In this document: one piece after another, positions 17,235 through 36,514 of the stretch
Position numbering within the stretch: position 1 is the first letter of the stretch
Layout: the number at the start of each line of letters is the position of its first letter
Origin: a virus
Strand: one strand, 5' to 3'
DNA length: 40,088 nucleotides
Virus record (IMG/VR): IMGVR_UViG_3300025873_000008
Coordinates: 1 to 40,088 of that record
The notes under the pieces: model-generated
What the model saw: only the letters and a program-made list of their open reading frames with translations
Databases searched by the model: none
Told to the model about the DNA's origin: nothing
Made by a program: the position numbers and the translations under genes

Positions 17235-17243
17235 GTAAAGAAG

Positions 17244-20200
17244 ATGATAATATTTATAACATTAAGTTTCGCAGGTGCAGAGTCAGGTCCTTTTGATCTG
17301 TACTCTGATGTTGATGGTTTCACTACACCATTTGCACAAAATGTAAGCAAGGCTGACCTTTTATTAGGTTATGAAGTCGTAGCTCCTGATGGAACAACAA
17401 CTGTTAGATTGTTAGATTTAGGTGCAGATTGTGCACCCTTTACAACAGATATATACAACTGTGCTACACCAAATTGTGATTTCTCTGGAGAGATTAATTG
17501 TATAATACCAGACTGTAACTTTAGTGGAACAATTGTTTGCCCTGCGCCAGAAACTACAACTACCACTACTACTGGATATCCAGGATTCTCACCATGTACT
17601 TGGTCAACTTATGGAGGTAACCCTGGAGAAATAGCTGTATACGACTTCAATACTAACTCATCAACTGTGGTGTTAGTGCCTAATGATTTTACAATCACTT
17701 CAGGAATAAATAGACCTATCTGTTCTACATCAAGTAAGTTATGGTTAGCTAGCTATCCTGCATCTTCTGCAGCTTGTGGTAATATTGATATAACTAATCC
17801 AGAAGGTTTTCCTAATGCTGTAACAGGAAATGGAACAAAAACATTATCTAATGGTGTAGTGTTAACTACAACATTTAATGGTCCTGATCCAATATATGAT
17901 TCAACACCAGGAACTTTTGACCTATGTGATGGATTTTACATAAATCAGACAAATACTAGTACAAGTGCAAGTTTCGCATTAAAAGTTAATGGAGAATTGA
18001 CTATGGAGTTTGATCCTCCTATAAACTGTATTCAATTTATATCTAGTGCATGGGGCTATAGTGGAGATCCAAGAACAGAAGGTGATATAGAGATTGTATC
18101 TGTAACCAGTGATTCTCCTATTAGAGGTGAGCAGATTATACAATGTGTTAGAGGTGATGATGAGCAAGACATTCCTACATACGAAACAATACAGATAAGT
18201 CCAAATCAAGTTAACATGCAAGCTTATCAGGAGTCTGGAAATGGGTCTTTTCAAGTTGGATCAACTAAAATTACAGCAGAAAACAATGGTATTTCAAAAT
18301 TAGCACTTACTAATATATCTCCAACAGATGTGAGGGGAGTAATTATTGATTTCTATGTAGGTGATTTCAATGTAAATAATGCTAGACCACCTGAACTTCA
18401 ATATATTAGAGAATGGGATATAGATACATCTGGTCCTACACCAACTCTATCTTTTGTTAGAGAAATATCTATTGATGTAGATAATCTATCTAGCAGAGGT
18501 ATATGGGGAAGTGAAATAACTGCAATAGCTACAACTGCTGATAATAATACGTTACTTGCAGGATTTGGTGCAAGAGATGATGGTGAAGCTAGTATGGGTG
18601 TTTACTCATGGGATATTTCTACATCTGGTAACATTCTACTAAATGAAAATAATAAAATAGATAAAGCAACTGTAAGTTTTGGTAATACGTATGGAATTAC
18701 AACAGAGCTTACAGGAATGTTTATTACTAATGATGACAATGTTATTCTTTCTGGTAGATACTATGAAAATGAATCACCTAATAATGCATCAAACCGTGTA
18801 AGACAATATGAAGGGTTAGACTTAAGTTCTTGGACATCATCATCACCTGTTATTAATTTACAACAGCGTGGTGTTCCTGAATTTACCAATGCGTGGACTA
18901 GTACAAGTAAAGCTATGCCTGTATGGGGTGTAAATGGATTATTACAGGTAATTCAACCAGAAACACTTCAAGTATATAACATTGATCAAACAGGACCATA
19001 CAATGCTACACTGTCAGGTACAGTGGCTGATGATACTGTTTGGATACATACATCAACTGGTTGTGCAAATGTTAATATTCAGTATGATGATTGTGAAGGA
19101 GCTACATGGATACCTGCATTAACTGAACAAAATGATGAAGGTGAGTGGGTGTATATAGGACCTGCTACTTTTACTTATTCAGGAATTCAGGTTACAGCTA
19201 GTGCTACTCAAAGTAATATGCAACTGAGGTCAGGAGATACTGTAGGAGGTATACCACAAGAAGGATGTAGTGGAATATCTAATCCACCTGCAAATAATGT
19301 ATTGAGAAGTATTAGAGGTTTTGATTTTACTATTACACTAACTTTTTCACAACCTGTTAATAATATTCCTATTAGAGCTGCTGTACTTAACTCTCAACCT
19401 GACTTAAGTGGTGGAGATGTTTATACGTTTGATACAAATACAGGAACACCTGATGTATCAATAAGTGTTGGATGTAATGTTCAAGTTCAAGGAAACACAA
19501 TAGGTGGAGGTGTACCAGATTATGATACAGAAGGTGATGGAGAATTTATTATAAGCTCTAGCACACCTTTTACAATTTTAACTATATCTGGTGATGCACC
19601 AACTGGAGGACCACTATTACTAGGTTGTCTAGATGTTGAAACTACTACTTGTACGTGGGCACGCCCTGCAAGAGGAACGAGTGGCGTTGATTCATTTTAT
19701 CGCTATAATCCACTTTCTAACCAATATCAATTTGTTGATCTTCCAGACAGTTTTGGTGCACCTCCAGAGAATATAATAGGCTCAGGTAGTTCACAAAATA
19801 TTATGTTCCAATATTTAACAAATAGTTCACTCGAAAAACTTAGTATAAAGAGATGGAACCTAAGCGACTTGTCTATTGTTGAAACCTCAGATCCTAACAA
19901 TGTAATAGATATAAGTTGGCCAGCTGATGAATATTTTCTAGCTTCAATAGTTTGTGTAGTGGATGATAATACTCTTCTGCTTAATTCTATTAATATAAAT
20001 AACAATCCAGGTACTGGTAAAATATATAAACTAGTAATAAATGAAGATGGTTCATATACATTGACCTTTTTATTTACTTTAGGAAGTGATAGATCTTATT
20101 GGGCATCTCCGATATTTTCAAATAATAAAATAATATATCAGAGAATGGATACTCAAGATGTTGCTGATCCACTTTATATAGTTCAAAGGGATTACACCAC

Positions 20201-20579
20201 CTTAGATATAGAACTTGAAATAAATATAACAGACATACAGATTGCAGGAACATCACCAGATGGATACTTTATCCAGACAAGTGCGCAATGGATGTTTGTT
20301 TATGAAGGTAAAATGTATATACTTGTAAGTGGTATTAAGTTATATGAAATAGATACAAATTTCCCTTACAATACTACATTAATAAATGACAACACAGCAT
20401 TCTTTGGCCCAGGAGAGTTTAATAATCAATATTTAAGAACTTGGAGTAATGCAGGTGAGTGTAATGGAAATTTATCTTTTATTCCATCAACAAGCCCAAC
20501 TACCACTACCACTACTACTGTTGACCCATCAGGACCTAGTACAATATGGATAAAGTTTGATCCTATAACACCAGCATAG
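17244..20579 (+). CDS. Large modular adhesin-like tail protein, 1111 aa
   Basis: Domains in order: FDLYSD-type module (residues 1-72); two short CxFSGxIxC motifs (about 76-100); poly-Thr linker; start of a propeller-like repeat region (about 112-170); the EGFP-type beta domain (about 180-374), which duplicates the one in the vWA protein; continuation of the propeller-like repeats (about 376-620, DISTSG / DLSSW / VYNIDQTG blades); a diverged beta domain (about 630-805); a second propeller-like region beginning CTWARP (about 808-1085); poly-Thr linker; short end. No catalytic motif. This reads as a receptor-binding or surface-display protein. The stop is TAG, followed two codons later by TAA. 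Beta-propeller is inferred from repeated short strand patterns and needs structure prediction. Confidence 0.65.
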   Translation: MIIFITLSFAGAESGPFDLYSDVDGFTTPFAQNVSKADLLLGYEVVAPDGTTTVRLLDLGADCAPFTTDIYNCATPNCDFSGEINCIIPDCNFSGTIVCPAPETTTTTTTGYPGFSPCTWSTYGGNPGEIAVYDFNTNSSTVVLVPNDFTITSGINRPICSTSSKLWLASYPASSAACGNIDITNPEGFPNAVTGNGTKTLSNGVVLTTTFNGPDPIYDSTPGTFDLCDGFYINQTNTSTSASFALKVNGELTMEFDPPINCIQFISSAWGYSGDPRTEGDIEIVSVTSDSPIRGEQIIQCVRGDDEQDIPTYETIQISPNQVNMQAYQESGNGSFQVGSTKITAENNGISKLALTNISPTDVRGVIIDFYVGDFNVNNARPPELQYIREWDIDTSGPTPTLSFVREISIDVDNLSSRGIWGSEITAIATTADNNTLLAGFGARDDGEASMGVYSWDISTSGNILLNENNKIDKATVSFGNTYGITTELTGMFITNDDNVILSGRYYENESPNNASNRVRQYEGLDLSSWTSSSPVINLQQRGVPEFTNAWTSTSKAMPVWGVNGLLQVIQPETLQVYNIDQTGPYNATLSGTVADDTVWIHTSTGCANVNIQYDDCEGATWIPALTEQNDEGEWVYIGPATFTYSGIQVTASATQSNMQLRSGDTVGGIPQEGCSGISNPPANNVLRSIRGFDFTITLTFSQPVNNIPIRAAVLNSQPDLSGGDVYTFDTNTGTPDVSISVGCNVQVQGNTIGGGVPDYDTEGDGEFIISSSTPFTILTISGDAPTGGPLLLGCLDVETTTCTWARPARGTSGVDSFYRYNPLSNQYQFVDLPDSFGAPPENIIGSGSSQNIMFQYLTNSSLEKLSIKRWNLSDLSIVETSDPNNVIDISWPADEYFLASIVCVVDDNTLLLNSININNNPGTGKIYKLVINEDGSYTLTFLFTLGSDRSYWASPIFSNNKIIYQRMDTQDVADPLYIVQRDYTTLDIELEINITDIQIAGTSPDGYFIQTSAQWMFVYEGKMYILVSGIKLYEIDTNFPYNTTLINDNTAFFGPGEFNNQYLRTWSNAGECNGNLSFIPSTSPTTTTTTTVDPSGPSTIWIKFDPITPA
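17793..18366 (+). repeat. Duplicated beta domain, copy 2
   Basis: Homologous at protein level to 15822-16380 but embedded inside a propeller-like region rather than next to a vWA domain. Starts PEGFPNAVTGNGTK and ends with IIDFYVGD, matching VVFDLYACG of copy 1. Confidence 0.85.
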
Positions 20580-20588
20580 ATATAAATT

Positions 20589-21911
20589 ATGAAAGTAACA
20601 CAAAAAATAAAAGATAAATTAAGAGAGGTTCGCAGATCAAATCCAGGTCTTACTTCTGTGTGGTATGGTTATAAATCATCTAATGGAGTTAGTACAGGAG
20701 AGTTAAGTGTTGTATGTGGTGTTGAAAAGAAAAAACCTCTTTCAGAATTGTCTGATGATGAGATTATACCAACTGAAGTGAAAGTTGGAAGTCAGTCTAT
20801 TAAAACAGATATTGTGGAAATAGGTAAACCAGAGCTACTAGGTACTTGTAATTCTGCATGTGGTCAAAACGCAGGATCAGCATCAATACCTAACAGATCA
20901 TATACAAGACCTGTTAAAGGTGGTATATCTATAAGTAGTAACAATACTAACACAAGTGTAGGTACATTTGGATTAGTTGTAAAAGATGTTGCTACAGGAG
21001 CAATATTAGGACTCAGTAATAATCATGTTACAATTGCAGATGCATTTTATACAGACTCTAGAGATTTATCTGGAGTGATACAAAATGATTATGATCCAAC
21101 AAATAACATATATCAAGGAACTGAAGGAACTGTTGCTGGAGGAAGTTGGGCAGAATACTTCACCTCAGCAAATATAATTGGAAGAGGTGTGAGATATGTT
21201 CCTGTTCACCCACAGAGTTCAGGATTAGTAAATAATGTAGATGCTGCATTATTCTCATTAAAATCTAATGTTATAAGTCTTTTTGAAAGTTGGAAGCAAG
21301 TAGGACTAGATTCAGTTATAACAAGTAATCTACCTTTTGCTACAACTTCGGAAATAGATAATGCTCTTACAAGTAATCCAGAATTATATAGTTCAGGAAG
21401 AACAACAGGTCCTAAAGGTGGAGCTAGTTGCCCCATGAGAATTTTTACAACAACAGGAGGATTTCCTATTTCATATAAAAGACAAGGAGTATCTACTCTT
21501 ATTGAAATGGAAGATATTATAGGATATTTTAAACCTACTTTAGAAGATCCTACATCACAAGATCCAAGTGAGCTTTGTTGTAACCCAGTAAGGGGTGGAG
21601 ATTCAGGATCTGCTTTAATTGCTAATATAGGAGGAACTATAAAAGTAATTGGACTAGTTTTTGCTGGAGGTGGTTCATCATGTGACGGTGGACCTAATTC
21701 ATATCAAGTTGGATGGGCTTGTAGAATAGATGAAGTAGCTAACCAATTAGGAATTACTAGCCTTGATGCAGGTGATTTATTTACTGTTGTAAATGAAAAC
21801 TCAATAGAGTACGTAACTGAACTTGGAGGAAGTGATCAAATAAATAAAGAATGTGATGGAGCAACTTATTGGCAAGTTGGTCTAACAGATACATTAAATA
21901 ACCCTTGTTAA
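20589..21911 (+). CDS. Trypsin-like serine protease, virion-associated
   Basis: 440-aa protein with a chymotrypsin-type catalytic triad: His146 in LGLSNNHVT, Asp218 in NNVDAALFSL and Ser339 in GGDSGSAL, in the correct order, with an oxyanion-type GG before the DSG. The first 70 residues are basic and helical (KVTQKIKDKLREVRR), then a Cys pair, then a Ser/Thr-rich stretch. There is no signal peptide, and the gene lies between the adhesin and the tail-collar protein, so the enzyme is probably carried on the virion. It may process tail proteins or degrade host surface proteins. The Asp region fits trypsin-like domains of bacteria and phages rather than HK97-type prohead proteases. Substrate unknown. 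Confidence 0.8.
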   Translation: MKVTQKIKDKLREVRRSNPGLTSVWYGYKSSNGVSTGELSVVCGVEKKKPLSELSDDEIIPTEVKVGSQSIKTDIVEIGKPELLGTCNSACGQNAGSASIPNRSYTRPVKGGISISSNNTNTSVGTFGLVVKDVATGAILGLSNNHVTIADAFYTDSRDLSGVIQNDYDPTNNIYQGTEGTVAGGSWAEYFTSANIIGRGVRYVPVHPQSSGLVNNVDAALFSLKSNVISLFESWKQVGLDSVITSNLPFATTSEIDNALTSNPELYSSGRTTGPKGGASCPMRIFTTTGGFPISYKRQGVSTLIEMEDIIGYFKPTLEDPTSQDPSELCCNPVRGGDSGSALIANIGGTIKVIGLVFAGGGSSCDGGPNSYQVGWACRIDEVANQLGITSLDAGDLFTVVNENSIEYVTELGGSDQINKECDGATYWQVGLTDTLNNPC

Positions 21912-21924
21912 AATATAAAATACC

Positions 21925-23031
21925 ATGTCAAATAATTGCTCAAATTGCTATAACGGATGTACTGAGATAACCTCAGACAAATGCGTTAAATATACAGGGG
22001 TAGATGTCCCTGTTCTAGGAATAAAAAATGGAGACTCTCTATCTTATGTAGAGCAGTCATTAATAGGTTTTCTAACCTCATCGCTTGATGGTACAGGAAT
22101 ATTTCCTGTAATACCACAGACAGATATATGTCCAAGTTTACAAGCAGAACTAGACAATTGTAATCCCCTTTCATTAAATAACTACTTAACAGGAATCGTA
22201 AAGTTTTTATGTAGTTTAGAAGAACAAATTTCAGGAGGAGGAGGCTCAGGAGGAGATTCACAAGACTATGACCTAGATTGTATAGATTTACCAGTAGGTT
22301 CAGATCCAAGTGATACACAAGTAGTGCTACAATCTGTAATATACCAAGTTTGTACACTAGTTGATCAACTTAATGGTTTTATAAATTTTGTTGAAAACAC
22401 TTATGTTAGAATTTCAGATATAAATACGTATATTGAAAACTATATACAAAATGATCCAGGTCAACAACTTATTGCTAATAGAATGGTTCCTTATTCAATT
22501 GTTGCTGCTACTGGAGGTACTGCATTTCTTAATAACTTTGATGCTTCTGGAGCAGGTATAGGTGATTGGGTAAGTATATATTTATGTAATGGTGAAAATG
22601 GAACCCCTGATTTAAGAGGTAGAGTGCTAGTTGGAACTAGTGATGGAAGCATGAGTGGTGGACAAATGGACACAGCTGTAGATCCTGCTGAACCTGATAA
22701 CCCAACTTATACAATATCAACTCCAGTAGGTAGTAACGGTATAGTTTTGAGTCAAGGACAAATTCCTTCACATACACACGCTGTTACTATTGGACCATCA
22801 ACACCTACAATAACCCCTACAGGGTGGGCAGCAGGACCTTACATTGGTGATAGCATACCAGGTGGTGGAGGATTTGATGGTGGAAGTAATGCCTTTAGAC
22901 AAAGACAGTTTAATGCAGACCCTCTTCCTCCACATACACATACTGTTACTCTTAATCCTACAGGTGGTGGACAATCTCACGAGAACTATCAACCTGGACG
23001 TGGAGTATATTATATAATTTACATACCTTAA
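21925..23031 (+). CDS. Tail-collar receptor-binding fibre protein
   Basis: 368-aa protein. The N-terminus (CSNCYNGCTEITSDKCVKYTG...LGIKNGDSL) is an attachment motif that I recall from many Bacteroidota-phage fibres. The middle is a Gly/Ser linker and a helical part with predicted trimerisation (about 130-180). The C-terminal half is tail-collar-like: APYSIVAATGGT-type start, GRVLVG, DLRGR, and two HxH motifs (H283/H285 in SHTHAV; H337/H339 in PHTHTV), ending with GVYYIIYIP. HxH pairs in T4-type fibre tips bind metal in a trimer. The protein is probably the distal receptor-binding fibre or spike. Confidence 0.8.
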   Translation: MSNNCSNCYNGCTEITSDKCVKYTGVDVPVLGIKNGDSLSYVEQSLIGFLTSSLDGTGIFPVIPQTDICPSLQAELDNCNPLSLNNYLTGIVKFLCSLEEQISGGGGSGGDSQDYDLDCIDLPVGSDPSDTQVVLQSVIYQVCTLVDQLNGFINFVENTYVRISDINTYIENYIQNDPGQQLIANRMVPYSIVAATGGTAFLNNFDASGAGIGDWVSIYLCNGENGTPDLRGRVLVGTSDGSMSGGQMDTAVDPAEPDNPTYTISTPVGSNGIVLSQGQIPSHTHAVTIGPSTPTITPTGWAAGPYIGDSIPGGGGFDGGSNAFRQRQFNADPLPPHTHTVTLNPTGGGQSHENYQPGRGVYYIIYIP

Positions 23032-23042
23032 AACAAAATAAA

Positions 23043-23369
23043 ATGGCATACCTACCTGTAAACCCTTGCTGCACTGATGTAGTTTTAAATAACCCTTGTG
23101 GATGCACAAGTACATGTAATGAATGTACTAACTCCTGTGGAACAAATGGTACTGTATCGAGCACAGTTGTGTACGATGGTCCAACTCTTCCAGGATCTGG
23201 TGTGGAAGCTTGTGATACAATCAATGTAGCATTATCAAAAATAGACTCTGTTCTTGTCGAGTTAAAAAATCAAGTTGCAACTAACACTAGTGACATTGCT
23301 TCTATTAAAGAACAGATAATAAACATTAACTCACAAATAACAAACATTAATAATAACTGTTGTTCATAA
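23043..23369 (+). CDS. Coiled-coil fibre/trimerisation protein, 108 aa
   Basis: Begins with a Cys-rich head (NPCCTDVVLNNPCGCTSTC...). It continues with VVYDGPTLPGSGVEACDTI, a motif shared with Bacteroidota-phage fibre proteins, and ends in a heptad coiled coil (VALSKIDSVLVELKNQV; IKEQIININSQITNINNN) terminating in CC. A short trimeric stalk protein fits best. The stop overlaps the next start by one base. Confidence 0.65.
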   Translation: MAYLPVNPCCTDVVLNNPCGCTSTCNECTNSCGTNGTVSSTVVYDGPTLPGSGVEACDTINVALSKIDSVLVELKNQVATNTSDIASIKEQIININSQITNINNNCCS

Positions 23370-23620
23370 TGATGACCGTACTACTAACCATATCTCAAAT
23401 GGGATCTGATACCTTTGCATTTGACTTATACTCAGATGTAGATAATTTCACTACGCCTTTTGAAACAGATGTATCAGGCACTGACTTGTTAAATGGATAC
23501 ACTAGTTCTCTAGTTCCAGATTACACAAACATTGTACGAGTGCAGTCTATAGGCAAGTGCGTCAATTATTTGGATATAGTTTTAGAAAATATAACAACAA
23601 CAACAACTTTAATACCTTAA
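23369..23620 (+). CDS. FDLYSD-type module protein, stand-alone
   Basis: I start at ATG 23369, which overlaps the previous stop (TAATG); the longer frame would need TTG. The 83-aa protein is essentially one copy of the recurrent module: strand MTVLLTISQMG, then FDLYSDVDNFTTPFETDVSG, DLLNGY, and VRVQSIGKC, followed by a short strand and a poly-Thr end (ITTTTTLIP). There is no cargo domain after the Thr run. See the findings for the family. Confidence 0.75.
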   Translation: MMTVLLTISQMGSDTFAFDLYSDVDNFTTPFETDVSGTDLLNGYTSSLVPDYTNIVRVQSIGKCVNYLDIVLENITTTTTLIP

Positions 23621-23623
23621 ACC

Positions 23624-24886
23624 ATGTTAATACAAATAACCATAACCATTCCACCTGGAGGCGCTGCTGGACCTTTTGACTTATATTCAGATGCGGACGG
23701 ATTCACAACTCCATTTGAAACACAAGTCCCAGCTGTAGATTTAGTAGCTGGATATACAGTTACACTTCCTATGGGAGCAACGATTATACGAGTTTGCTCT
23801 GTTGGTACATGTGAAAATTGTATTGACTTACCAACTAATTGTCCAACTACTACAACAACAACTGTTGCACCTACCACCACAACAACAACAACGGTAGCTA
23901 CAACAACCACAAGTACAACAGTAGCTCCGACAACTACCACAACAACAACTGCAGCTACTACTACAACAACTACTACTGTGGCACCAACAACAACAACCAC
24001 TACCACAGCAGCTACTACAACTACAACAACCACTGCACCAACAACAACCACAACTACTACAGGAACTCCTGAGAAGTTAGGTTGGGAACTTACAACTACT
24101 ACACCTTCTGAAATATTTCAGGTAGGCATGCAAATACTTGTAAACGATGTTGTTCAAGTTCAGGAAAGTATTGATGCATCTAATTACCCATTATCAGGAG
24201 AGATTCTAGTTGGTACAGGAGCAGTAGTAAAAGTAATAGTTACAAATCAAAAGACTGGAATACATACTTTCCAAAACAGAGCAACGTTACAAGGTCTTGG
24301 GTCACCAGCTGTAATATTAAGTGATACTCAATCTGCAACTAATTCACTTGTTTCAGATGTATCGTTTACTAAAGGTGGACTTACAGAAGATCTTGAGGTT
24401 ATTGGTAATATTATAGTAAACACAACAACTACTAGTACCACATCATCAACAACAACTACTACTACAACAGCAGCACCAACAACCACTACTACTACGAGTA
24501 GTGCTGTAGGAGCTTGTGATTTAGGTACTATAACAGCAACTGCACCTTCTCAAACAACAACGACTAGTTCAACAGCAGCTACAACTACCACCACTACTAC
24601 AGTGGGTGGGTTGACACAAGGATTGTTGAGTCCATTCGGACAAACAAGTTCTACTTCTGCATGTGCTCAAAACCTAACACTAGATATTTGGGTGTCCAAC
24701 GTTAATGCAAGTAATGCACCAACTAGTAGCTCTATCTTTTATCAGAATGCACAAGGAACTAGTATTTTCCAAGGTAATACTTCACAACCTTGGCATGCTT
24801 TTGAAGTATCAGGTAGTTCACGATTTGCAATGGAAATATCTACAAGTGGTCAAGTTGATTCATCTGTTGATATATGTACAATTTAA
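23624..24886 (+). CDS. FDLYSD module plus mucin-like poly-Thr and beta domains
   Basis: 420-aa protein: module (residues 1-72, GPFDLYSDADGFTTPFE); mucin-like Thr region (about 74-146); beta domain 1 (about 148-265, KLGWELTTTTPSEIFQVG...); Thr/Ser linkers around 266-330 broken by a short CDLGTITA motif; C-terminal beta domain (about 330-420). The last part contains Ser/Thr/Asn-rich strands and two Cys. The plan is stalk plus globular head, as in surface adhesins. The poly-Thr DNA uses mixed ACA, ACT and ACC codons, so selection acts on the protein rather than on a DNA repeat. Confidence 0.7.
   Translation: MLIQITITIPPGGAAGPFDLYSDADGFTTPFETQVPAVDLVAGYTVTLPMGATIIRVCSVGTCENCIDLPTNCPTTTTTTVAPTTTTTTTVATTTTSTTVAPTTTTTTTAATTTTTTTVAPTTTTTTTAATTTTTTTAPTTTTTTTGTPEKLGWELTTTTPSEIFQVGMQILVNDVVQVQESIDASNYPLSGEILVGTGAVVKVIVTNQKTGIHTFQNRATLQGLGSPAVILSDTQSATNSLVSDVSFTKGGLTEDLEVIGNIIVNTTTTSTTSSTTTTTTTAAPTTTTTTSSAVGACDLGTITATAPSQTTTTSSTAATTTTTTTVGGLTQGLLSPFGQTSSTSACAQNLTLDIWVSNVNASNAPTSSSIFYQNAQGTSIFQGNTSQPWHAFEVSGSSRFAMEISTSGQVDSSVDICTI
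23846..24061 (+). repeat. Mucin-like poly-threonine repeat
   Basis: 72 codons, about four fifths Thr, arranged as runs of six or seven Thr separated by VAP, VA or AA, giving a period of about 16-17 residues. The plus strand is almost free of G. On the minus strand this creates misleading Val-rich frames. Confidence 0.9.
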
Positions 24887-24912
24887 TTTATAAATCTTAA
24901 AAACAATATAAT

Positions 24913-25149
24913 ATGGCTTTTACCGTAAATGTAAAAATAACAGCACCATACGGAGCTAATTCAGGACCTGTCGATATATATGAAAATAGTGATCTTTTCA
25001 CCACTCCTGTGGCAACTGGTGTTTCAATGTCATCTCTTATAGCACCAGCTGGTGTTGATGTAGGAGTAAATCAAAATACAACAATTCTAAAAGTTCAAAA
25101 CACTGGAACGTGTACAAACTCTGAGAATGTTGCAATCATATTTTCATAA
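24913..25149 (+). CDS. FDLYSD-type module protein, diverged, stand-alone
   Basis: 78-aa protein aligned with the other modules: strand FTVNVKITAPYGANSG, then GPVDIYENSDLFTTPVATGVS, then a longer loop, ILKVQNTGTC, and a last strand VAIIF. It lacks the LL.GY part, replaced by a Gly/Val-rich loop. It lies between two related genes, suggesting tandem duplication. Confidence 0.7.
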   Translation: MAFTVNVKITAPYGANSGPVDIYENSDLFTTPVATGVSMSSLIAPAGVDVGVNQNTTILKVQNTGTCTNSENVAIIFS

Positions 25150-25155
25150 TACAAT

Positions 25156-25383
25156 ATGACAGCTTTAATAAAAATAGACACAATAGGTGAAGATCTTCAC
25201 TTGTTTAATCTCTACTCAGACATAAATAACTTTACAGCTCCATTTGCAACAAATGTAACTAGAGATGAGTTGTTAGGTAAGGATAAAATAGATGGTTATC
25301 CAACTGATCAGATACCTGATTTAGCAACAGTTATTAGAGTTATGGCAATTGATGAAGGGATATTCCTAGATATTAATGTATAA
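25156..25383 (+). CDS. FDLYSD-type module protein, stand-alone
   Basis: 75-aa protein with FNLYSDINNFTAPFATNVTRDELLG and VIRVMAIDEG, a further module copy without the terminal Cys. It is the last gene of the accessory cassette and is followed at once by a double hairpin terminator. Four module genes stand in a row from 23369 to 25383. Confidence 0.75.
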   Translation: MTALIKIDTIGEDLHLFNLYSDINNFTAPFATNVTRDELLGKDKIDGYPTDQIPDLATVIRVMAIDEGIFLDINV

Positions 25384-25384
25384 A

Positions 25385-25448
25385 AAGTCTTGTTTTGTTG
25401 GTTTTACAAGGCTTCTCCTAGGGTTATTAGTAGCCCTAGGAGTTTTTA
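25385..25448 (+). terminator. Double hairpin intrinsic terminator
   Basis: First hairpin AAGTCTTG (25385-25392) / CAAGGCTT (25407-25414), then CTCCTAGGG (25415-25423) / CCCTAGGAG (25434-25442) with TTTTT following. The second is a classic terminator. It ends the accessory cassette. Confidence 0.9.
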
Positions 25449-25495
25449 TTTATAACTAAATTGATTATAAATAATAACCTGGTTTAGTAAATTTA

Positions 25496-25528
25496 TTTGT
25501 AATATCCAAAATAAATTTTATATCTTTA
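25496..25528 (+). promoter_or_regulatory. Bacteroidota-type promoter for the neck/tail operon
   Basis: TTTG (25496-25499), a 21-bp spacer and TATCTTTA (25521-25528), one mismatch from TAnnTTTG. It lies 28 bp before the ATG at 25557, directly after the terminator, which makes a new transcription unit likely. Confidence 0.6.
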
Positions 25529-25556
25529 CAATATTTTTTAACTAAAGCACAATTAA

Positions 25557-26795
25557 ATGTCGTACAATGAGAAACTACTCAGACAGCTAGAGGGACTACT
25601 GGGCTGGAAGAAAAGTAAAAAGTTTTATGCTGAAAAGCTGAACATAACAGAAGATGAAGTAGATGAATTAATTAAGGAGATCAGAAGTAGAGAGAAAGAT
25701 GAAGGAGAGGTATTCTTAAAAACATCAAACGATTCAACAACCTTTGAATCACTAAAGAAGGTTAACAATGAGAAGGGAACTATAGAGAGTACAATCACTC
25801 TTGATTATGAACCCAAAGACCACCTAGAGCTAGCAAAGCTTCACAAAATAGACCTAGACAAATACATAATTACAAACTACTGGTCTAAAGTACTTCCAAG
25901 CGGAAAGTTTACTTCCTCAGTATTTTCAAAGAGGAAGACACCAAAAGATTACACAGCTGAGGATTTCAGCAAGTTTTTAGAGAACTATAAATCAAACTAC
26001 ATTCCAATCCCCTCACCACAGAAAAGTGGTAAAGATTTTGCAGATGTTGAGTTATCTCTATCTGATTATCACTTAGCAAAGCGATATGTTGATGGTGATA
26101 ACAACCCTGCAGTGAGAGTAAGAAGATTTTTCGAAGTGGCTCAAAAGTTGATGCATAAAGTAAAATCTGTTTATGATATAGATAAGGTGGTATTTCCAAT
26201 ATCTAATGACTTTTTTCATACAGATAACTACCAAAATTCAACAACAAACGGAACACCACAAGATACCATATTAGATTATTCTTCTGAGTATGAACTAGGT
26301 TTTGCAATACTTGTAGATACTATCAAGATGTTAAAAGCAAACTCTAATCATGTAGAAGTTATATTAGTCCAGGGTAATCATGATAGAACAAAGTCTTTCT
26401 ACCTAGCACACGCATTAGATATATACTTTACAGATGAAAAGAATGTAAGTTTTATAAGAGATGAAGGATTAATAAAAGCAACTGTAGTTGGTGAAACATT
26501 TATAGGTTACCATCATGGGAACTGTAAGATAGATCAACTACCACTATTATTTGCCACTCATCCAAAATATGCATCCATGTTTGGTGATGCTAAATACAGA
26601 GAAGTCCATACAGGTGATAAACATCACTACATGGCTAAAGAAATAAAAGGGGTTAGAATACAACAAATGCCTAGTTTGTCTGGTACAGATAGATGGCATA
26701 AAGATAACAACTTTGTACATAGTGTACGAGCTGCTCTTGCTTTAGTCTATGATAATGAGCATGGTAAGGTGGCTGAATTTGAAGAAAGAATATAA
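25557..26795 (+). CDS. Calcineurin-like metallophosphoesterase
   Basis: 412-aa protein. Residues about 12-45 form a small helix-turn-helix-like part (WKKSKKFYAEKLNITEDEVDELIKEI). The catalytic part at about 160-400 has the metallophosphoesterase motif set: SDYH (DxH), NDFFHTD (second acidic site), GNHD (273-276), GYHHGN, and HTGDKHH in place of GHxH. Members include SbcD-type nucleases and diverse phosphatases. Related genes sit near tail or neck genes in crAss-like phages. The target could be DNA or a nucleotide; the N-terminal HTH part favours nucleic acid. It begins the neck/tail transcription unit, three bases before the next gene. Confidence 0.8.
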   Translation: MSYNEKLLRQLEGLLGWKKSKKFYAEKLNITEDEVDELIKEIRSREKDEGEVFLKTSNDSTTFESLKKVNNEKGTIESTITLDYEPKDHLELAKLHKIDLDKYIITNYWSKVLPSGKFTSSVFSKRKTPKDYTAEDFSKFLENYKSNYIPIPSPQKSGKDFADVELSLSDYHLAKRYVDGDNNPAVRVRRFFEVAQKLMHKVKSVYDIDKVVFPISNDFFHTDNYQNSTTNGTPQDTILDYSSEYELGFAILVDTIKMLKANSNHVEVILVQGNHDRTKSFYLAHALDIYFTDEKNVSFIRDEGLIKATVVGETFIGYHHGNCKIDQLPLLFATHPKYASMFGDAKYREVHTGDKHHYMAKEIKGVRIQQMPSLSGTDRWHKDNNFVHSVRAALALVYDNEHGKVAEFEERI

Positions 26796-26797
26796 TT

Positions 26798-27523: not shown

Positions 27524-27529
27524 TAACAA

Positions 27530-28009: not shown

Positions 28010-28012
28010 ATT

Positions 28013-28987: not shown

Positions 28988-28992
28988 GAATT

Positions 28993-31900
28993 ATGGCTAA
29001 ACAGCAATCAAAAAAAGATTCTGACAAAACAAAGAAGCAGGGTAACATTAGATTAAATGCAGGTGTTGCTAGGACAGGATTAAACCTAGACAGCTCTATT
29101 AATCAAGTTGGTCCTGGAAGGCTTACGTATGCTTTAAATGCTGCTGTAGAAAACTTTGACTCTAGTTCTGTAAACTATCAGAATGAGCCAGGTAATGAGT
29201 TGTGCTTAGATTTTCCTGCAGGATATAAGCTCATTGGTTCTCATTTTATTCCTGAGAAACGTAAGAATATATTCTTTTTAGCCAACCCAAGTACAGGAGG
29301 TAGCGAGATTGGATTTATGGACAATAATGATTGTCAATATCAAACACTTGTAAATGCTCCTTGTCTTAACTTTGATGTAAATCATCCAATCCCTAAAGTT
29401 GTACATAGAATAACAAACTGTACAACAGAACTCTACTGGACAGATGGAGTTAATCCTAGAAGATATTTAGACATAGAAAATATCCCTTATGTAATTAATC
29501 TAACATCAGAGGGAAGTATTTGTAATTCTACAGAAACTGATCAGCTCGATTGTAATCAGCTTAAAATTCAACCTAACTTTGAAATACCTCAATTAATGAT
29601 CACTCAGATCAGAACTATAGGTAATTTAAAAGCAGGTACATACCAGTTTGCAATTCAATACTCAGACGCAAGTGGTAACGAACTTACTTCATTCTATTCT
29701 GTAACTAACCCTTTACCTATTGCTGATGAGTTTACAACAACAGTAAACTTTGATTATCCAGTGGGAAAATCTATTGTTGTAGGTATATCTAATTTAGATT
29801 TATCAGGACAGTTTGAATATTACAACTTAGCCGTAATAAAAACTATAAATAACATAACTTCAGTTGAAATTGTTGGTACATATAGTATTGAAGATTCTAC
29901 AAGAGAAGTAACTTATACAGGAGGAGATCAGTCACCTATACAACTTTCCATATCAGATATATTTGAAAAGTTTCCATATTATGATATTGCACAAGATGTT
30001 ACAGCTGTACAAGATGTTCTTGTTTGGGACAATCTTACATCTATTGATAGGATTAACTATCAGTCAATCGCAAATCAAATAACACTTGGTTGGGAGACAT
30101 ACAGAATACCAGCAGATGAAAATTATGCAGATGAATTAAATGCTGTAAATCTTCGTGGATACATGCGTGATGAAGTGTATGCATTTGAAATTGTATTTTT
30201 ATTGAAGAATGGTAAACAGACAGATGGTTTCCACATTCCAGGAAGAGAAAGGGGTGCTAACGAAGCTTATCCTGATGTAGCTGATTCAGGAATTAATCAA
30301 AATAACGATTTTATTGGAGACCCTGACTACTATGCTGGTGATGTAGGATTTAAACCTTGGTGGAAAATATATAATACAGCTTCTGTAACAGGACCTTCTG
30401 TTGGTCAATCTAATGATGCAAACTATAAAGGACCATGGGAATACGGTGAGTTTGCATACTGGGAATCAACAGAAACATATCCTTGTGAACCAGATGTGTG
30501 GGGAGATTTATCTGAACAACCTATTAGACATCACAAGTTTCCAGATGTAGCAGTAAGTCCTATTATAGAAAACGGACCAATAGTGTATGACAATGATAAA
30601 ATTGTACCTACAATGCAGAACGATGCTGTGTTTCCTATTGGTGTACGATTAGATAATTCGCAGGTGCATACATTGATACAAAATTCTGGATTAACACAAG
30701 ATCAGAAAGATGATATTGTTGCCTACAAGATTGTAAGAGCTGACAGAGGAACAAACAAATCTATAGTAGCAAAAGGTATACTTAGAAATGTAAACAAGTA
30801 TACTAGAGATGAAGAAGACTACTACTACCCTAACTATCCATATAATGACCTATCTTCAGACCCATATGTGTTAGCAAACAATAATGCATGGAGTGCTGAC
30901 TCTGAAGCATACTTGGTGTATTTACCAGAAGCTGAACCAGATACAAGTACTTTTCTTGCAATAATACAAGGACTTGAAGTAACAGTAAATGAAAATCAGG
31001 GTGTATTTGAGTATACTAGTGCACTTAATGGTAAAGTGACACAAGCAGTTATAGACTTAGATGAAGTTGTTGAAATCTGTTCATTAACAAGACCTGTTCC
31101 ACTTTTAGGTAAGATGGTAATTGGTCCTGGTAATTATGATGTATGGAGAGTATTTACTGATAATACGCTTACTTCATGTGGACACAGAATACGTTGGTTT
31201 GATCCATTCACTGATTGGAATGATACACCTTACGTTAATGGGGTATTTAGAACACAATATATGTTTGATAATGGAGCGTTAGGTACTTCAAAGAAATATA
31301 CAGTTATTACTGAAGTGGGAGCACCAGAACCAGACGTAACATATTGTGGTAGAGTTTGGGCTGGACCTCTTGGTTGGCTAGATTGTTGTAGACCTAGACA
31401 GACATTAATGCCAGAGGAAGTGTTTGATCCTGGAGAAGTTGAAAATCCTCCAGGGGTTAAAAAAGGTTCTGATTATGAAGGAGATAGTACAAGTAATAAT
31501 GGGTGGTATGGAAGAAGAACAAAAAGTAGAAGATCGTCTTTAGGCTGTAAAGATGAAAAACCTCAACCTTCAATTGAAGAACAAGAAGATGGAGAGATTA
31601 CATACAGACAAGTATTTAATTCACCAGAAACATCTTTTGGTCAACCATTCTTAGGAAGTGTATTAAAGCTTGAGAGTGTAATGTTCGGTGGTGGAAAAGC
31701 TCACTGGGTACAAGTTAAAGATAATGCTAACTATAAACTTCTTTCTAAAGAAGCTCAGCAAGATGCATTAGATAGTTCAAAAAAGATGGCTGATTTATCA
31801 AATCCACAAAGTCTTGGTGTAATGTTTACAGCATATCAAGCATATCTAACTATCTACATAAATGGTATTACAAGAAAGAACTATGCAATGTCGTTTAATT

Positions 31901-34900
31901 CTAGAGCTAACTATGATTATTCTTTTGATGTAGGTAATAACATAAATGGAGGAATTAAACAAAGGGATATAGATTTAACTAGATACTTGATACCAGGTGT
32001 ACAATCGTTAGGTCCTAAAGAAGAGTATTCTATAAATAACTGGAACAGAGAGACTTCTGTGTTTATAAAAACATTGGAGGAAAGAGAATTACCTAGTAGT
32101 AATACAGTGTCTGTTCCCCCTTTACCTTTTCCAAGTCAAACACCTAGTTTACTTAGTGGAGGGGAGCCACTTATAGAAGATAAATCTAGATTTACAATAG
32201 GTAATAAAGGTGCATGTGCTACTCCTGAAAAAGAACAAGATCTTACAGTAGTATCATACTATGCATCTATGAAAAACATTTTTCCAAATCAATATGGACA
32301 AATGTATTCATATACTACTATTGACACAGGATACCAAGCACTTATAGAAGACACAGGAACTTCTACAATATTTGGTGGGGATACATTTATTTCTAGATTT
32401 GCATTTAAAACAAAGCTTCCATACTTTATAGATAATAGAGTGGGTGCTCCAGATGATAGTGATATATTTTACGATGAGATTGGTAATATTGGATACCCAA
32501 GATATTGGCACTCTGCAAGATCTATATTAGAAGATTATGATTTAGAAGATGGTGGTAGTACAACTCCTGTAAGAAACTTAATTTCATACAAGGCACACAA
32601 CTTTGATTGTCCTAATGATCCATCTACTATAGAACCAGGAGGAGGATCATATAGAACTTTCTATGATGGATATATGTATTTATTTGCATATGGTATTCCA
32701 AACTTCTATTGTGAAACTACATACAACACAGACTTACGACAAGCATTTAATAATAAAGAAGGGGACTTCTGGCCTCATGTAAGTTCTGGTATTCCTGATG
32801 ATTGGTTACAAGAAACAAACGTACCTATTGCGCAGGATAACACATATTATTATAATGTAACATATTCTAAACAGAATAAAGAAAATGTATTCTCACATCT
32901 ACCTCCAGATTGGAAAGATGACTTATGTTACACAGTGTTTCCATTTAGAGCTATTTATTCAGATGCAGCTATAACAACTGCTGACTCTAGAGTTAATAAC
33001 TGGTTAGTTTACAGAGCATTATCGTTCCATGATTTCCCACAGAACTATGGAAACCTTACATCATTGGATGGTATTCAAAACAAAGCAATACTTGCACGAT
33101 TTGAGAACAAGTCATTATTATATAACAACCTTCTCACAATTGATACAAGTAATCCACAAGCTGCATATATTGGTAACCCAAGACTATTTGATAGTTCTCC
33201 ACCAATTGACTTTGCTGAAACAGATTTAGGATATGTAGGAAGCCAGAATAAATTCTTACTAAAAATACCTCAAGGTCAAATCACTGTAGATGCTAAGAGA
33301 GGACAAGTGTTCTTAGTTTCAGGAACTAAAGTTCAAGATCTTACAGCATTTGGTTCTGGTGTAAATAGGTTCATGGCAGATCACTTACCGTTTGAAATAT
33401 TACAATACTTCCCAAATGTACCTACAGACAACCATTTCAATGGTATAGGACTACATGGTGTCTATGATAGTAAGTTTGAAAGAGTAATTATTACCAAGCG
33501 TGATTATATCCCTCTTCGTAATGATATTAAATATGATGAAGATACAGGAGAGTTCTACATTGAAGGAACAGCAGCTCCTCTTTTTGCACAAGCAGATCCA
33601 ACATCACGTTTACCACAAGTTTGTACTTTATATAAAAGTCAACCATTTGACGATACTATAAATATACAATATGTTCCTTGTGGAGAAGATTATGTAGAAA
33701 CTATTTTACTTGAATGTGGTTCTACAATTTGTCAAGGTATTGAAATATGTGCTCGTCAAATAGTATATAGTAATATAAGTCTTATAGTGCAGGGTGCTTG
33801 TGGAGACACAACAACAACTACAACAACTAATGGTACTACTACAACTAGTACTACAATAAGAAAAACTACTACTACTACAACAACAGTACAAGTAACAACT
33901 ACTACTACAACTGCAAAAAGTGACCCTCCAAGACACATAGTGTATCTTGAAGATGAAAAATACTTCTGTAATAAATCTTGGACAATTTCTTTTGACTTTA
34001 ACACAAAGAGTTGGATATCTTTTCATTCATATATTCCAAACTTCTACATAGGAGAGAATAACTTCTTCTATTCAGGAGTAAATGGATGTTGTACAAGTGA
34101 TGGTTTTGGAAATCTTGAAGTTATAGCAGGTGAGTTATTACCTCCTACTTTACCAACCACTACCACCACTACTACAAAAACAACACTATTTCCAACTACA
34201 ACAACTACTAGTACATTTAGAGATTTAGTAATAGAGGGTGGTGAAGTTACACCTACTTTTTGTGAACTTACTGGTGGTACAGGAATAATAACAATAACTA
34301 CTACTACAACAGCTCCATGCTACACTCCGTCAGAGAATTCAATAACTGATAGTTTTTTAGAAGGATATCAAATAGTTGGAGGATCTCCAACAATTAGTAC
34401 AGGCTCATCACAAGATGCGTGTAGAGCAATGAATTTAATATCTCCAAATGTATTAGGAATTTATATACAAGTTTCTTATGATAGTTATGATATAGGTGAA
34501 GCAGTATATGTTTGGGATCCAATAGCTCCATATTGTGAAGGTCTTTCAGAAGGTTGGTATTCTAATACAGAAAATACCGATAGTGTCTTTTATGTAGCTT
34601 CTAATTCTAGAATTGAACAAATAGAATATTGTGATTCCTGTTTAAGTACAACTACTACTATAGCTCCTCCACCAGAACTAGATGAATGTTGTGGATTTAT
34701 TTCAGTAACCCCTGAAGGTTTATACGTAAGTGGAGGTTCTGAAGACTCTACTTCACAAGATGGTTATGTAAATGTTCCAGGATTTGTATACTCAGCAACA
34801 ACAGGTGTTGCTTTTACGTCAAGTAAGTTATGGACTATAGATACAGACATAAAAGAATGGGACATTACACTTTCTCCATTTACAGCAACATTCAATAGAG

Positions 34901-35649
34901 ATATAACATATGGAGAAACTCCAAGTGTTGCAGGTAACATTGCACTAAGTGATACAGTATTATTAGGTGTAAATTCTACTACAGCTCCACAGAAGATTCT
35001 AGAAATAGATATTACAGCAAATACAGCTGTAGTAAATGTACAATTTGAAATACAACTAAATAGAGTTGTCGAAAGTAATTTATTATACACTAAAGAAAAT
35101 AAGTTAGTTTTAATATCTAAAGACGGACTAGACTACTACATTACACAATTTGATTACTCTAGTGGTAATGTTGAATTAGATGTAAGTCTTGGACAGCTCA
35201 CTGGACGCATTATGTTATTTGAATGTGATTGTATAATTAAAGTTTTAATTGATAGTATATTATATATATTTGACCCAATCCAAGGGCTTGTTAATGTAAC
35301 TGAAACAGATCCTAATTTTCCTCCACCAAATGCAAGTCCTATAGATTTTAAAACACTTAGCCAATCAGCAGCATATCTAAATTGTGGAATTGAAAATACA
35401 ACCACAACAAGTACTAGCACATCTACTACAACTAGCACTACTACAATTTCACCAACTTGCTATGAGTATGAAGTAAGTGGACCAATAGCAACATACTATA
35501 CAGATTGTTTTGGTCAGCAACAAGTAATAAGTTTAGGTAGTGGACAAACACAAATAGTATGTGCAGGTCTAGGAATAATAGGTGCAACATTAATAGGACC
35601 ATGTCCAGATTATACAACGACAACTAGTACTACTAATCCCCCAGTTTAA
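28993..35649 (+). CDS. Tail muzzle/stabilisation protein with added modules
   Basis: 2218-aa protein. The core at residues 1-1605 is recognisable as the crAss-like tail 'muzzle' or P22 gp10-like stabilisation protein (TGLNLDSSINQVGPGRLTY; LIGSHFIPEKRKNIFFL). A poly-Thr linker (about 1606-1640) is followed by another core segment (KSWTISFDFNTKSWISFHS, about 1660-1710). Then come added modules: Thr linker; short motif; a domain with CYTPSENSITD...GWYS (about 1775-1885); a propeller-like domain CCGFISVTP...(about 1892-2110); Thr linker; a small CYEYEVSGP domain (about 2148-2205). The terminal part of the usual muzzle is missing here and is found in the next gene. Muzzle proteins form the tail-end assembly through which DNA leaves. 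Confidence 0.75.
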   Translation: MAKQQSKKDSDKTKKQGNIRLNAGVARTGLNLDSSINQVGPGRLTYALNAAVENFDSSSVNYQNEPGNELCLDFPAGYKLIGSHFIPEKRKNIFFLANPSTGGSEIGFMDNNDCQYQTLVNAPCLNFDVNHPIPKVVHRITNCTTELYWTDGVNPRRYLDIENIPYVINLTSEGSICNSTETDQLDCNQLKIQPNFEIPQLMITQIRTIGNLKAGTYQFAIQYSDASGNELTSFYSVTNPLPIADEFTTTVNFDYPVGKSIVVGISNLDLSGQFEYYNLAVIKTINNITSVEIVGTYSIEDSTREVTYTGGDQSPIQLSISDIFEKFPYYDIAQDVTAVQDVLVWDNLTSIDRINYQSIANQITLGWETYRIPADENYADELNAVNLRGYMRDEVYAFEIVFLLKNGKQTDGFHIPGRERGANEAYPDVADSGINQNNDFIGDPDYYAGDVGFKPWWKIYNTASVTGPSVGQSNDANYKGPWEYGEFAYWESTETYPCEPDVWGDLSEQPIRHHKFPDVAVSPIIENGPIVYDNDKIVPTMQNDAVFPIGVRLDNSQVHTLIQNSGLTQDQKDDIVAYKIVRADRGTNKSIVAKGILRNVNKYTRDEEDYYYPNYPYNDLSSDPYVLANNNAWSADSEAYLVYLPEAEPDTSTFLAIIQGLEVTVNENQGVFEYTSALNGKVTQAVIDLDEVVEICSLTRPVPLLGKMVIGPGNYDVWRVFTDNTLTSCGHRIRWFDPFTDWNDTPYVNGVFRTQYMFDNGALGTSKKYTVITEVGAPEPDVTYCGRVWAGPLGWLDCCRPRQTLMPEEVFDPGEVENPPGVKKGSDYEGDSTSNNGWYGRRTKSRRSSLGCKDEKPQPSIEEQEDGEITYRQVFNSPETSFGQPFLGSVLKLESVMFGGGKAHWVQVKDNANYKLLSKEAQQDALDSSKKMADLSNPQSLGVMFTAYQAYLTIYINGITRKNYAMSFNSRANYDYSFDVGNNINGGIKQRDIDLTRYLIPGVQSLGPKEEYSINNWNRETSVFIKTLEERELPSSNTVSVPPLPFPSQTPSLLSGGEPLIEDKSRFTIGNKGACATPEKEQDLTVVSYYASMKNIFPNQYGQMYSYTTIDTGYQALIEDTGTSTIFGGDTFISRFAFKTKLPYFIDNRVGAPDDSDIFYDEIGNIGYPRYWHSARSILEDYDLEDGGSTTPVRNLISYKAHNFDCPNDPSTIEPGGGSYRTFYDGYMYLFAYGIPNFYCETTYNTDLRQAFNNKEGDFWPHVSSGIPDDWLQETNVPIAQDNTYYYNVTYSKQNKENVFSHLPPDWKDDLCYTVFPFRAIYSDAAITTADSRVNNWLVYRALSFHDFPQNYGNLTSLDGIQNKAILARFENKSLLYNNLLTIDTSNPQAAYIGNPRLFDSSPPIDFAETDLGYVGSQNKFLLKIPQGQITVDAKRGQVFLVSGTKVQDLTAFGSGVNRFMADHLPFEILQYFPNVPTDNHFNGIGLHGVYDSKFERVIITKRDYIPLRNDIKYDEDTGEFYIEGTAAPLFAQADPTSRLPQVCTLYKSQPFDDTINIQYVPCGEDYVETILLECGSTICQGIEICARQIVYSNISLIVQGACGDTTTTTTTNGTTTTSTTIRKTTTTTTTVQVTTTTTTAKSDPPRHIVYLEDEKYFCNKSWTISFDFNTKSWISFHSYIPNFYIGENNFFYSGVNGCCTSDGFGNLEVIAGELLPPTLPTTTTTTTKTTLFPTTTTTSTFRDLVIEGGEVTPTFCELTGGTGIITITTTTTAPCYTPSENSITDSFLEGYQIVGGSPTISTGSSQDACRAMNLISPNVLGIYIQVSYDSYDIGEAVYVWDPIAPYCEGLSEGWYSNTENTDSVFYVASNSRIEQIEYCDSCLSTTTTIAPPPELDECCGFISVTPEGLYVSGGSEDSTSQDGYVNVPGFVYSATTGVAFTSSKLWTIDTDIKEWDITLSPFTATFNRDITYGETPSVAGNIALSDTVLLGVNSTTAPQKILEIDITANTAVVNVQFEIQLNRVVESNLLYTKENKLVLISKDGLDYYITQFDYSSGNVELDVSLGQLTGRIMLFECDCIIKVLIDSILYIFDPIQGLVNVTETDPNFPPPNASPIDFKTLSQSAAYLNCGIENTTTTSTSTSTTTSTTTISPTCYEYEVSGPIATYYTDCFGQQQVISLGSGQTQIVCAGLGIIGATLIGPCPDYTTTTSTTNPPV
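33808..33912 (+). repeat. Poly-threonine linker inside muzzle protein
   Basis: 35 codons, mostly Thr (TTTTTTNGTTTTSTT, then TTTTTTTVQVTTTTTTA), separating the muzzle core from the next conserved segment. Further Thr linkers in this gene lie near 34156-34216, 34289-34311, 34645-34660, 35398-35448 and 35617-35634. Confidence 0.85.
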
Positions 35650-35650
35650 T

Positions 35651-36514
35651 ATGAAAACAATAGTAATAAAATTAACTTTTTCTGGACCAAACGCAGGCCC
35701 ATTTGACATACTTGATCCATCAGGAGGTGTGTTATTAGAGGGTGTGAGCAGAGAGGATTTGATAAATGGAATTACTGTTGAAGTTGATGATATTATTCAA
35801 TCAATTATAATTAGATCAAACGGAGATTGTAAATTTGAAAAATTTGTACAACTTGTAGATATTCCTATAGATGAATATCAGGAAGCTAAATATGCTCAAG
35901 ATACTACAGGATGTTTGTGGACACATCTAAAGAATCCACAGATATATAATTATTACTATGGTAATATTGAACCCTACATTATAGAATACCCATTTGCTTA
36001 TAAATATAACGATGAGATACTTCAGAATGTAAAAGACTATAGTAAAGTGTATAGATACTTACCTTCAACAGCTGGAGCTTTTGATAGTAATAGAAAGGTA
36101 CAAATAGATGATAAATGGTTTAACAAGGCTGTATTATATAATGGCCAACAATCTACAGGATTGTTAGAACTTGTTCCTAAGCCAGAAAATAATCTGTCAG
36201 CATATATGCAATATCCTATATTAAATAATGACAGTAAGACTATTACATTCACCAAAAGTGATAACTTTTATCAGTATAATACATTCTGGGCATTACAGAA
36301 AGATGAGCAGATACCATTATTTAATACATCTTGTGAATCTCTTTCTATTGATAAAGTTATAAATCAATCTAATATGGATTATGGTCCTAAATCATTTGGT
36401 AAGTCAACCCTTAGAGCTAAAAACTTAAAGGTGAGACATATACTTGATGACTCATCAACAACACACATTATAAGTCAGTTTATTGTAACACCATCACAAA
36501 TATCATATAAGTAA
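35651..36514 (+). CDS. FDLYSD-type module fused to muzzle C-terminal domain
   Basis: 287-aa protein starting one base after the muzzle gene stop. Residues 1-70 are a diverged module copy (GPNAGPFDILDPSGGVLLEGVSREDL). Residues about 85-287 match what I know as the last segment of crAss-like muzzle proteins (YYYGNIEPYIIEYPFAYKYN; FNKAVLYNGQQSTG; YMQYPILNNDSKTI; NFYQYNTFWALQKDEQIP; LKVRHILDDSS). So the usual single muzzle chain seems cut in two here, and the second half has gained the module at its N-terminus. The stop overlaps the next start by one base. The protein is probably part of the same tail structure. Confidence 0.7.
   Translation: MKTIVIKLTFSGPNAGPFDILDPSGGVLLEGVSREDLINGITVEVDDIIQSIIIRSNGDCKFEKFVQLVDIPIDEYQEAKYAQDTTGCLWTHLKNPQIYNYYYGNIEPYIIEYPFAYKYNDEILQNVKDYSKVYRYLPSTAGAFDSNRKVQIDDKWFNKAVLYNGQQSTGLLELVPKPENNLSAYMQYPILNNDSKTITFTKSDNFYQYNTFWALQKDEQIPLFNTSCESLSIDKVINQSNMDYGPKSFGKSTLRAKNLKVRHILDDSSTTHIISQFIVTPSQISYK

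Follow-up and report, generated by a model that had tools for sequence, protein, structure and literature searches.

The 40,088 bases of IMGVR_UViG_3300025873_000008, an entire virus record that was analysed at its full length and is hereafter called the window, contain six genes opening with one and the same protein module of about 70 residues, and in the last of these genes the module stands at the very point where the muzzle, a gatekeeper protein of the tail tip, is broken into two separately encoded pieces. The break is absent from the first-pass annotation of this DNA, which had recognized the six modules, and that the muzzle is broken where the module was added is the most informative fact to have emerged. 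Judged from its gene set, the virus is a crAss-like phage. The interpretation that we favor, with moderate confidence, is that the module is an immunoglobulin (Ig)-like N-terminal docking anchor for virion tail appendages in an uncultured crAss-like lineage and that it was captured once by the muzzle. The splitting of the muzzle is the stronger of the two findings, whereas the docking interpretation is plausible, attachment to the virion and the existence of a binding partner being deduced from sequence.

The muzzle, module and other anchor genes of the window lie on the given (+) strand. The N-terminal piece of the muzzle (N-piece, 28993..35649) consists of muzzle sequence from residue 1 to ~1707, interrupted by a poly-Thr insert at ~1535-1653 and followed, up to the split, by ~511 residues of poly-Thr-linked extra domains. 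The C-terminal piece (C-piece, 287 residues) begins with the module (35651..35866) and continues with a segment (35900..36514, residues ~84-287) whose homologues form the end of single-chain muzzles, so that the junction reads: poly-Thr end of the N-piece, stop codon, one base, ATG, module. The N-piece matches PF25731 (crassvirus muzzle) with 122 bits, the cut-off being 27; the C-piece alone has no match in Pfam and is recognized by phrog_15100 and by the ends of the outgroup muzzles, and the two pieces match near opposite ends of one PHROG of 1783 positions. In an AlphaFold2 model of the C-piece the residue blocks covering the module (1-80) are predicted as folded, with scores of 82-95, and nearly all the remainder scores below 50; such an unfolded remainder fits a segment that would need the N-piece, a shallow alignment being the alternative cause.

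The muzzle is contained in a single open reading frame (ORF) in all seven outgroups in which one was found (L191, L192, L193, L195, Lbo-JY46, FpV4 and csAssE-Sib); 76 of the 80 loci found through the exonuclease, as well as crAss001, gave no muzzle match and are not counted, and FpV4 was flagged as split only because it was missed by the middle profile, its ORF being one chain. The module was found at E <= 10 neither in these seven records nor in crAss001 (in the search of the four IMG/VR records, G001 served as control and was positive). The closest single-chain muzzle, that of L193 (1683 residues, from a record of 85,557 bases), matches the N-piece at 42-58% and the C-piece at 53%. Its residues 1434-1493 align to 1648-1707 of the N-piece and its residues 1490-1683 to 90-287 of the C-piece, so that the window sequence between the aligned parts is extra. 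Scans for further single-chain relatives returned none from Lbo-JY46 and only L193 itself from L193. Both of the other anchor families described below are present in L193, from which the module is absent; at the place of the module cluster, this record encodes (8715-9543) two small proteins of 192 and 80 residues that look FN3-like by eye. Descent of the module from these proteins was considered and set aside, hhalign yielding a probability below 1% (single sequences), i.e., no detectable similarity.

The split occurs at a single point in the lineage of the window. Among 78 distinct C-pieces, three were too near the start of their locus and were skipped; in 74 of the remaining 75 the preceding ORF ends between -1 and 37 nt before the ATG of the C-piece, none being found in the other case. 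A marker motif could be placed in the preceding ORF for 66 of these 75 and is missing in nine, six of which belong to a clade with a module gene in between. In the 66 cases the ORF continues for 258-602 residues beyond the motif and invariably contains TTTT, looked for along its full length. Eighteen of the 66 have the motif close to the beginning of a separate gene, so that the muzzle is encoded in three pieces. Such a three-gene muzzle is seen at L188:13176-19282 (reverse-strand coordinates) and in 17 other loci, and its second break coincides with the poly-Thr insert of the window N-piece at ~1535-1653. Joining of the pieces by readthrough, frameshifting or stop recoding is not favored, the window C-piece being in another frame than the N-piece, and is also disfavored by the spacing, which takes 11 values and all three frames (measured, in six cases, from the gene of a module instead of from the N-piece). 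With respect to gp44, the muzzle of crAss001, the split point can be mapped only roughly, through the alignment of FpV4 1731-1840 to gp44 1202-1303 (E 7e-6); it falls after the IG2/crass insertion, which ends at residue 1021 according to the structural account (PMC10172136).

As the first-pass annotation had proposed, all six ORFs are present and each opens with a homologous module. When the six N-terminal 85-mers were compared with phmmer against a target set consisting of the same six sequences, 14 of the 15 pairs scored E <= 7e-4, the only failing pair being 25156 and 35651 (E ~0.6). A single-sequence search with the 23624 copy recovered five of the six, missing the muzzle copy, and a profile built from related copies matched them all, with E-values from 8e-31 to 2e-21. 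The literal motif by which the family had been defined, FDLYSD...FTTPF, fares less well than the homology: 24913 has PVDIYENSD and FTTPV, 25156 has LFNLYSD and FTAPF and is devoid of GxC, and no FTTPF is present in the muzzle copy 35651. Both stand-alone and fused forms, the latter with varied cargo, are indeed seen. The first copy (17244..17438) starts a protein of 1111 residues (17244-20579) in which it is followed by a poly-Thr linker and beta-rich domains. The second (23369..23620) is stand-alone with a short poly-Thr tail; its gene has two in-frame Met codons and probably begins at 23372, the start used by its relatives, 23369 being possible. The third (23624..23836) starts a 420-residue poly-Thr protein (23624-24886), and the fourth (24913..25149, 78 residues) and the fifth (25156..25383, 75 residues, the conserved Cys missing) are stand-alone, the sixth being that of the C-piece. 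In 11 comparisons of modules with those of two close relatives the ratio of nonsynonymous to synonymous substitution rates (dN/dS) ranges from 0 to 0.63, a rough estimate in view of the few substitutions, and for this reason the protein reading of the modules is real; antisense Val-rich ORFs in this region are read as the complement of poly-Thr codons.

The fold of the module was predicted by AlphaFold2 from 51 aligned members as a compact, nearly all-beta domain (predicted local distance difference test 94.4, predicted template modeling score 0.82), which suggests an Ig-like beta-sandwich. The best structure comparison by VIA has Z 6.2 (67 residues, 2.3 Å), with many Ig/FN3 rows tied and all Z below 8, and Foldseek gave no match at E <= 0.001 against the PDB, the best E being 0.8, families that did not appear remaining possible; by these models the module groups with sandwiches of the Ig-like and fibronectin-like types, none of which stands out as a relative. 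The suspicion that it belongs to no named family also proved justified as far as significant matches in Pfam, PHROG, NCBIfam and PDB sequence scans are concerned. In the first three, matches were scattered, each involving between one and four of the 51 members (best E 0.013); for the six window proteins, nothing in Pfam or PHROG matched the module part, and the single match in the PDB sequence profile search, silk fibroin (E 0.4), was treated as due to chance. Two scans of bacterial and archaeal genomes and one of plasmids yielded no relative, weak negatives obtained with a few short peptide patterns or single queries; in the phage collection one short match of E 0.5 was found, and none with another copy as the query, again a weak negative.

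Scans of IMG/VR yielded 404 relatives of the muzzle piece and, for the stand-alone type, at least 558; the best 80 from each set were retained. A profile search of 164 loci, from which L001-L005, being pieces of the window, were excluded, gave 254 module matches in 161 loci, the three loci without a match being the named outgroup phages L166-L168; since overlapping loci repeat copies, the distinct matches are 193. The module is restricted to N-termini: of the 192 distinct copies whose start is intact, 190 open at a Met, the other two being cut by the end of the locus, and two modules in one ORF were never seen among the 254 matches. In a Met count over these 254 redundant matches, four whose profile start is late were set aside.

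The conserved N-terminus is joined to a variable and exchangeable C-terminal part, the arrangement by which the anchors of receptor-binding proteins are recognized. Over the first 72 residues, 17244 and 23624 share 99-100% identity with close relatives, and over the remainder 79-91% (in detail, 17244 vs. two relatives, 100% and 99% for the first 72 residues, 91% and 79% for the rest), and dN/dS is 0-0.15 in these two fused modules vs. 0.55 in the cargo of 17244. The stand-alone window copies are more variable (83-92% identity vs. 99-100% in the fused copies), with dN/dS of up to 0.60, the muzzle copy reaching 0.63. On a tree of 74 copies from 21 regions (seven of 81 region matches having failed the length filter) the labels "stand-alone" and "fused" need 8-9 changes, at least 3-4 of which are forced by well supported branches; L186_19712, marked as stand-alone in this set, is a muzzle piece cut by the end of its region. 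Cargo pieces separated by poly-Thr recur in module genes, in muzzle tails and in genes that begin with other N-termini: a piece of ~185 residues of the 17244 cargo recurs in 15306 (E 2e-41), and in L186 two adjacent genes with different anchors carry the same cargo (E 1e-50). Two other anchors were recognized in the window. One, MLTPRLTNC (residues 1 to ~108 of 15306..17234), precedes poly-Thr cargo that includes a vWA-like domain, and its family has 16 copies in the 21 regions scanned. The vWA-like domain matches Pfam VWA with E 4.8e-4, below the cut-off, and contains a DYTASM stretch which we take to resemble a metal-binding site. The other, a third family with the pattern CGC...YDGP.LPC...CDTLN...KID (21925..23369), occurs in a tail-fibre-like protein (21925-23031, 368 residues) and alone (23043-23369, 108 residues), and gave 72 domain matches, some ORFs being matched twice, 52 of them with a Met near the start. 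An ORF combining two anchor types was not found in the 21 regions. The N-terminal position and the presence of the same cargo on different anchors are what would be expected of a docking module.

In support of the tail location suggested at the outset, the module genes lie among tail genes and one copy is on the C-terminal piece of the muzzle. Each of the 45 long records searched has two or more module copies, and one of these is encoded in an ORF of 287-320 residues, the length anticipated for the muzzle C-piece. The 19 muzzle copies of the tree all lie on one side of a branch with 100/100 support; the module was therefore acquired once by the muzzle in this sample. A module copy is found directly before the exonuclease gene, within the tail gene block, in 12 of the 12 regions listed (out of 21). 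In L142, L144, L146 and L160, on the other hand, the other module gene is placed between the two muzzle genes and not before the exonuclease, where a gene resembling the third anchor family is found instead, and the records L144 and L146 have only these two copies; the pair was therefore kept although one gene moved. A module gene also lies directly before the C-piece in L124 and L162.

In the mechanism that we envisage, the module would hold the first ~70 residues of a protein on the virion, docking to the muzzle or beside it, and the poly-Thr linker would present an exchangeable C-terminal domain, probably adhesive, while the stand-alone copies, having no cargo, would fill or cap sites of this kind. 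On one occasion in the history of the lineage, a piece of the type "cargo - stop - start - module" would have been inserted into a loop towards the end of the muzzle gene and have split the muzzle, whose N-piece would thereby have received poly-Thr cargo at the tail tip as its new C-terminus and whose C-piece would have received the module as its new N-terminus; the two pieces would then have to reassemble in the virion. In a review (PMC10136315) the Ig-like and crass domains of the muzzle itself are said to be possibly able to dock the particle on the cell surface, and for this reason the tail tip would be a sensible place for added adhesins. It is even conceivable, though we would not call it likely, that the tail tip is a modular display in which an anchor-plus-cargo cassette, having broken the muzzle into two or sometimes three pieces, leaves on each subunit a free end for swappable adhesins and an Ig-like module onto which further adhesins bearing the module dock.

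A number of observations weigh against the docking interpretation. Ig-like domains are also found in phages as plain surface decorations. The records were found via the module or a muzzle piece, so that one copy per record is present by selection and information comes from the second alone. Coevolution between the muzzle and the other modules was assessed over 23 loci by a partial Mantel test, which gave a partial r of 0.04, with 706 of 2000 permutations as high, and direct contact between modules is therefore not supported. A gradient of identity like that along the fused genes is also present in the neighboring 21925 with its different anchor (100% and 93% vs. 87% and 84%), so that it characterizes the cluster rather than the module. 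Module cargo directly matches muzzle tails in few cases, four alignment rows vs. 49 with other genes. Finally, the closest single-chain muzzle is represented by one contig only (L193), and the C-terminal domain of the C-piece has no confident model, perhaps owing to the low diversity of its 28 sequences.

If the modules, the stand-alone copies included, served as Ig-like decorations of the surface and themselves bound glycans or other ligands, their N-terminal place would merely reflect gene history; the predicted Ig/FN3-like fold and the greater variation of the stand-alone copies would agree with this. Yet the module is N-terminal wherever the start could be judged, never occurs twice in an ORF and is the most conserved part of the two fused window genes, and other N-terminal families bear the same cargo, so that we consider this explanation unlikely. 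Somewhat less doubtful, but still improbable in our opinion, is a homotypic plug and socket, in which the muzzle copies would act at the tail tip as sockets for the remaining module proteins, making the muzzle the platform of swappable adhesins. That every long record searched has two or more copies, one of them in an ORF of C-piece length, and that in one clade the gene of the other copy sits directly between the muzzle genes speak in its favor, but the lack of coevolution beyond background does not, and the pairing is also explicable by shared ancestry.

The restriction to N-termini and the compactness of an autonomous domain would likewise suit an aid to folding or assembly, i.e., a module driving cotranslational folding or oligomerization, with no fixed site on the virion and possibly removed later; against this stand the 25 of 74 tree copies that have fewer than 45 residues behind the module (one being a muzzle copy cut by the region end), and we hold it to be very unlikely. 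Scarcely credible is the derivation of the module from the C-terminal sorting domain of the host type IX secretion system (T9SS), which the module would then engage. This possibility arises from the first row of the Foldseek search against the PDB, 8gl8_D, a 75-residue chain of a T9SS complex (E 0.8, TMq 0.50) that is taken, from the title of the entry, to be the RemZ sorting domain, and from the presence of the mirolase C-terminal domain (8qb1_C) and of 8gl6_D within the first 12 rows. The E-values are, however, near 1, the VIA Z of 5.8 is tied with fibronectin and pectate lyase domains, TIGR04183 is matched by none of the 51 members at E up to 10, and the module is N-terminal whereas the sorting domain is C-terminal.

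The module offers a searchable N-terminal domain for a large uncultured crAss-like group whose tail proteins are otherwise unannotated, and hence a handle on host attachment. The split muzzle represents a natural experiment: it reveals a site at which this chain can be interrupted, and a way in which a gatekeeper of the tail tip may come to serve as platform for parts that can be exchanged. Recombinant proteins would allow tests of docking, of the swapping of cargo and of the rejoining of the muzzle pieces.

As to the remaining genes of the window, profile scans identify a terminase (3816), a portal (5837), a major head protein (9882), a weakly matching ring protein (12615), an exonuclease of DNA-repair type (25557-26795) and further ring-type proteins (26798 and 28013), the poly-Thr protein cluster occupying 15306-25383; no orthologue of the hub and auxiliary capsid proteins gp36, gp38 and gp39 of crAss001 could be assigned by profile. 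The exonuclease is embedded in the tail gene block, as it is in Lbo-JY46 and relatives among the regions listed. When the head protein was compared with those of named phages, Lbo-JY46 was the closest (26% identity), followed by Flavobacterium psychrophilum phages (23%), so that there is no close named relative in the phage collection compared. Lbo-JY46 itself (L166, PP438436.1), recorded as a phage of the cyanobacterium Leptolyngbya, resembles crAss-like phages in its muzzle, its head protein and its ring genes; one may speculate that its true host is a co-cultured bacterium. Within the fibre cluster, the protein encoded at 20589-21911 matches a PHROG protease family (E 9e-18) and contains a GGDSGSAL stretch, presumably as in trypsin-like serine proteases; ORFs resembling it are present in the regions of some relatives.

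Neither the module nor a split muzzle is described in the crAss-like phage literature searched, the scope of which left out most subscription papers, and judged from sequence comparisons the module would appear to be a previously undescribed domain family built on a known anchoring principle. Compared with known systems, the closest correspondence is that of the muzzle with crassvirus muzzles (gp44 of crAss001; PF25731), the N-piece matching their profile and both pieces matching one PHROG. The difference is that gp44, a single gene, and the muzzles of the seven outgroups are one chain whereas the lineage of the window has two genes, sometimes three, and that, unlike gp44, the window muzzle has acquired new ends consisting of poly-Thr cargo and an Ig-like module.

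Phage receptor-binding proteins have N-terminal anchors, which the module resembles in its conserved N-terminus, exchangeable C-terminus and tail gene neighborhood. In crAss001, whose muzzle is likewise described as one chain, the head and tail fibres bind with their N-termini to hexon pockets or to the tail hub, being described as held through residues 1-26, 1-38 or 1-58 (PMC10172136); the module differs in being an autonomous domain of ~70 residues, predicted to be Ig-like, that is borne by several proteins and by the muzzle and is also made alone. The tail-fibre-like proteins with a Gp10_C-like end (window 21925; L193 5724-6803) have a neighboring N-terminal anchor family in the same cluster but in none of the 21 regions scanned do they share an ORF with the module. 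A clear match among predicted viral structures is provided by Virus NIOZ-UU157 alone, a protein of which is given as best hit in PMC10537231: five of its BFVD models (A0A7S9SU94, A0A7S9XH99, A0A7S9STY0, A0A7S9SU37 and A0A7S9XFL2) match the module with E-values from 4e-7 to 2e-4, the next row being at 0.04. These proteins, annotated as uncharacterized, are 77, 417, 939, 287 and 77 residues long, lengths that resemble the set of module proteins of the window.

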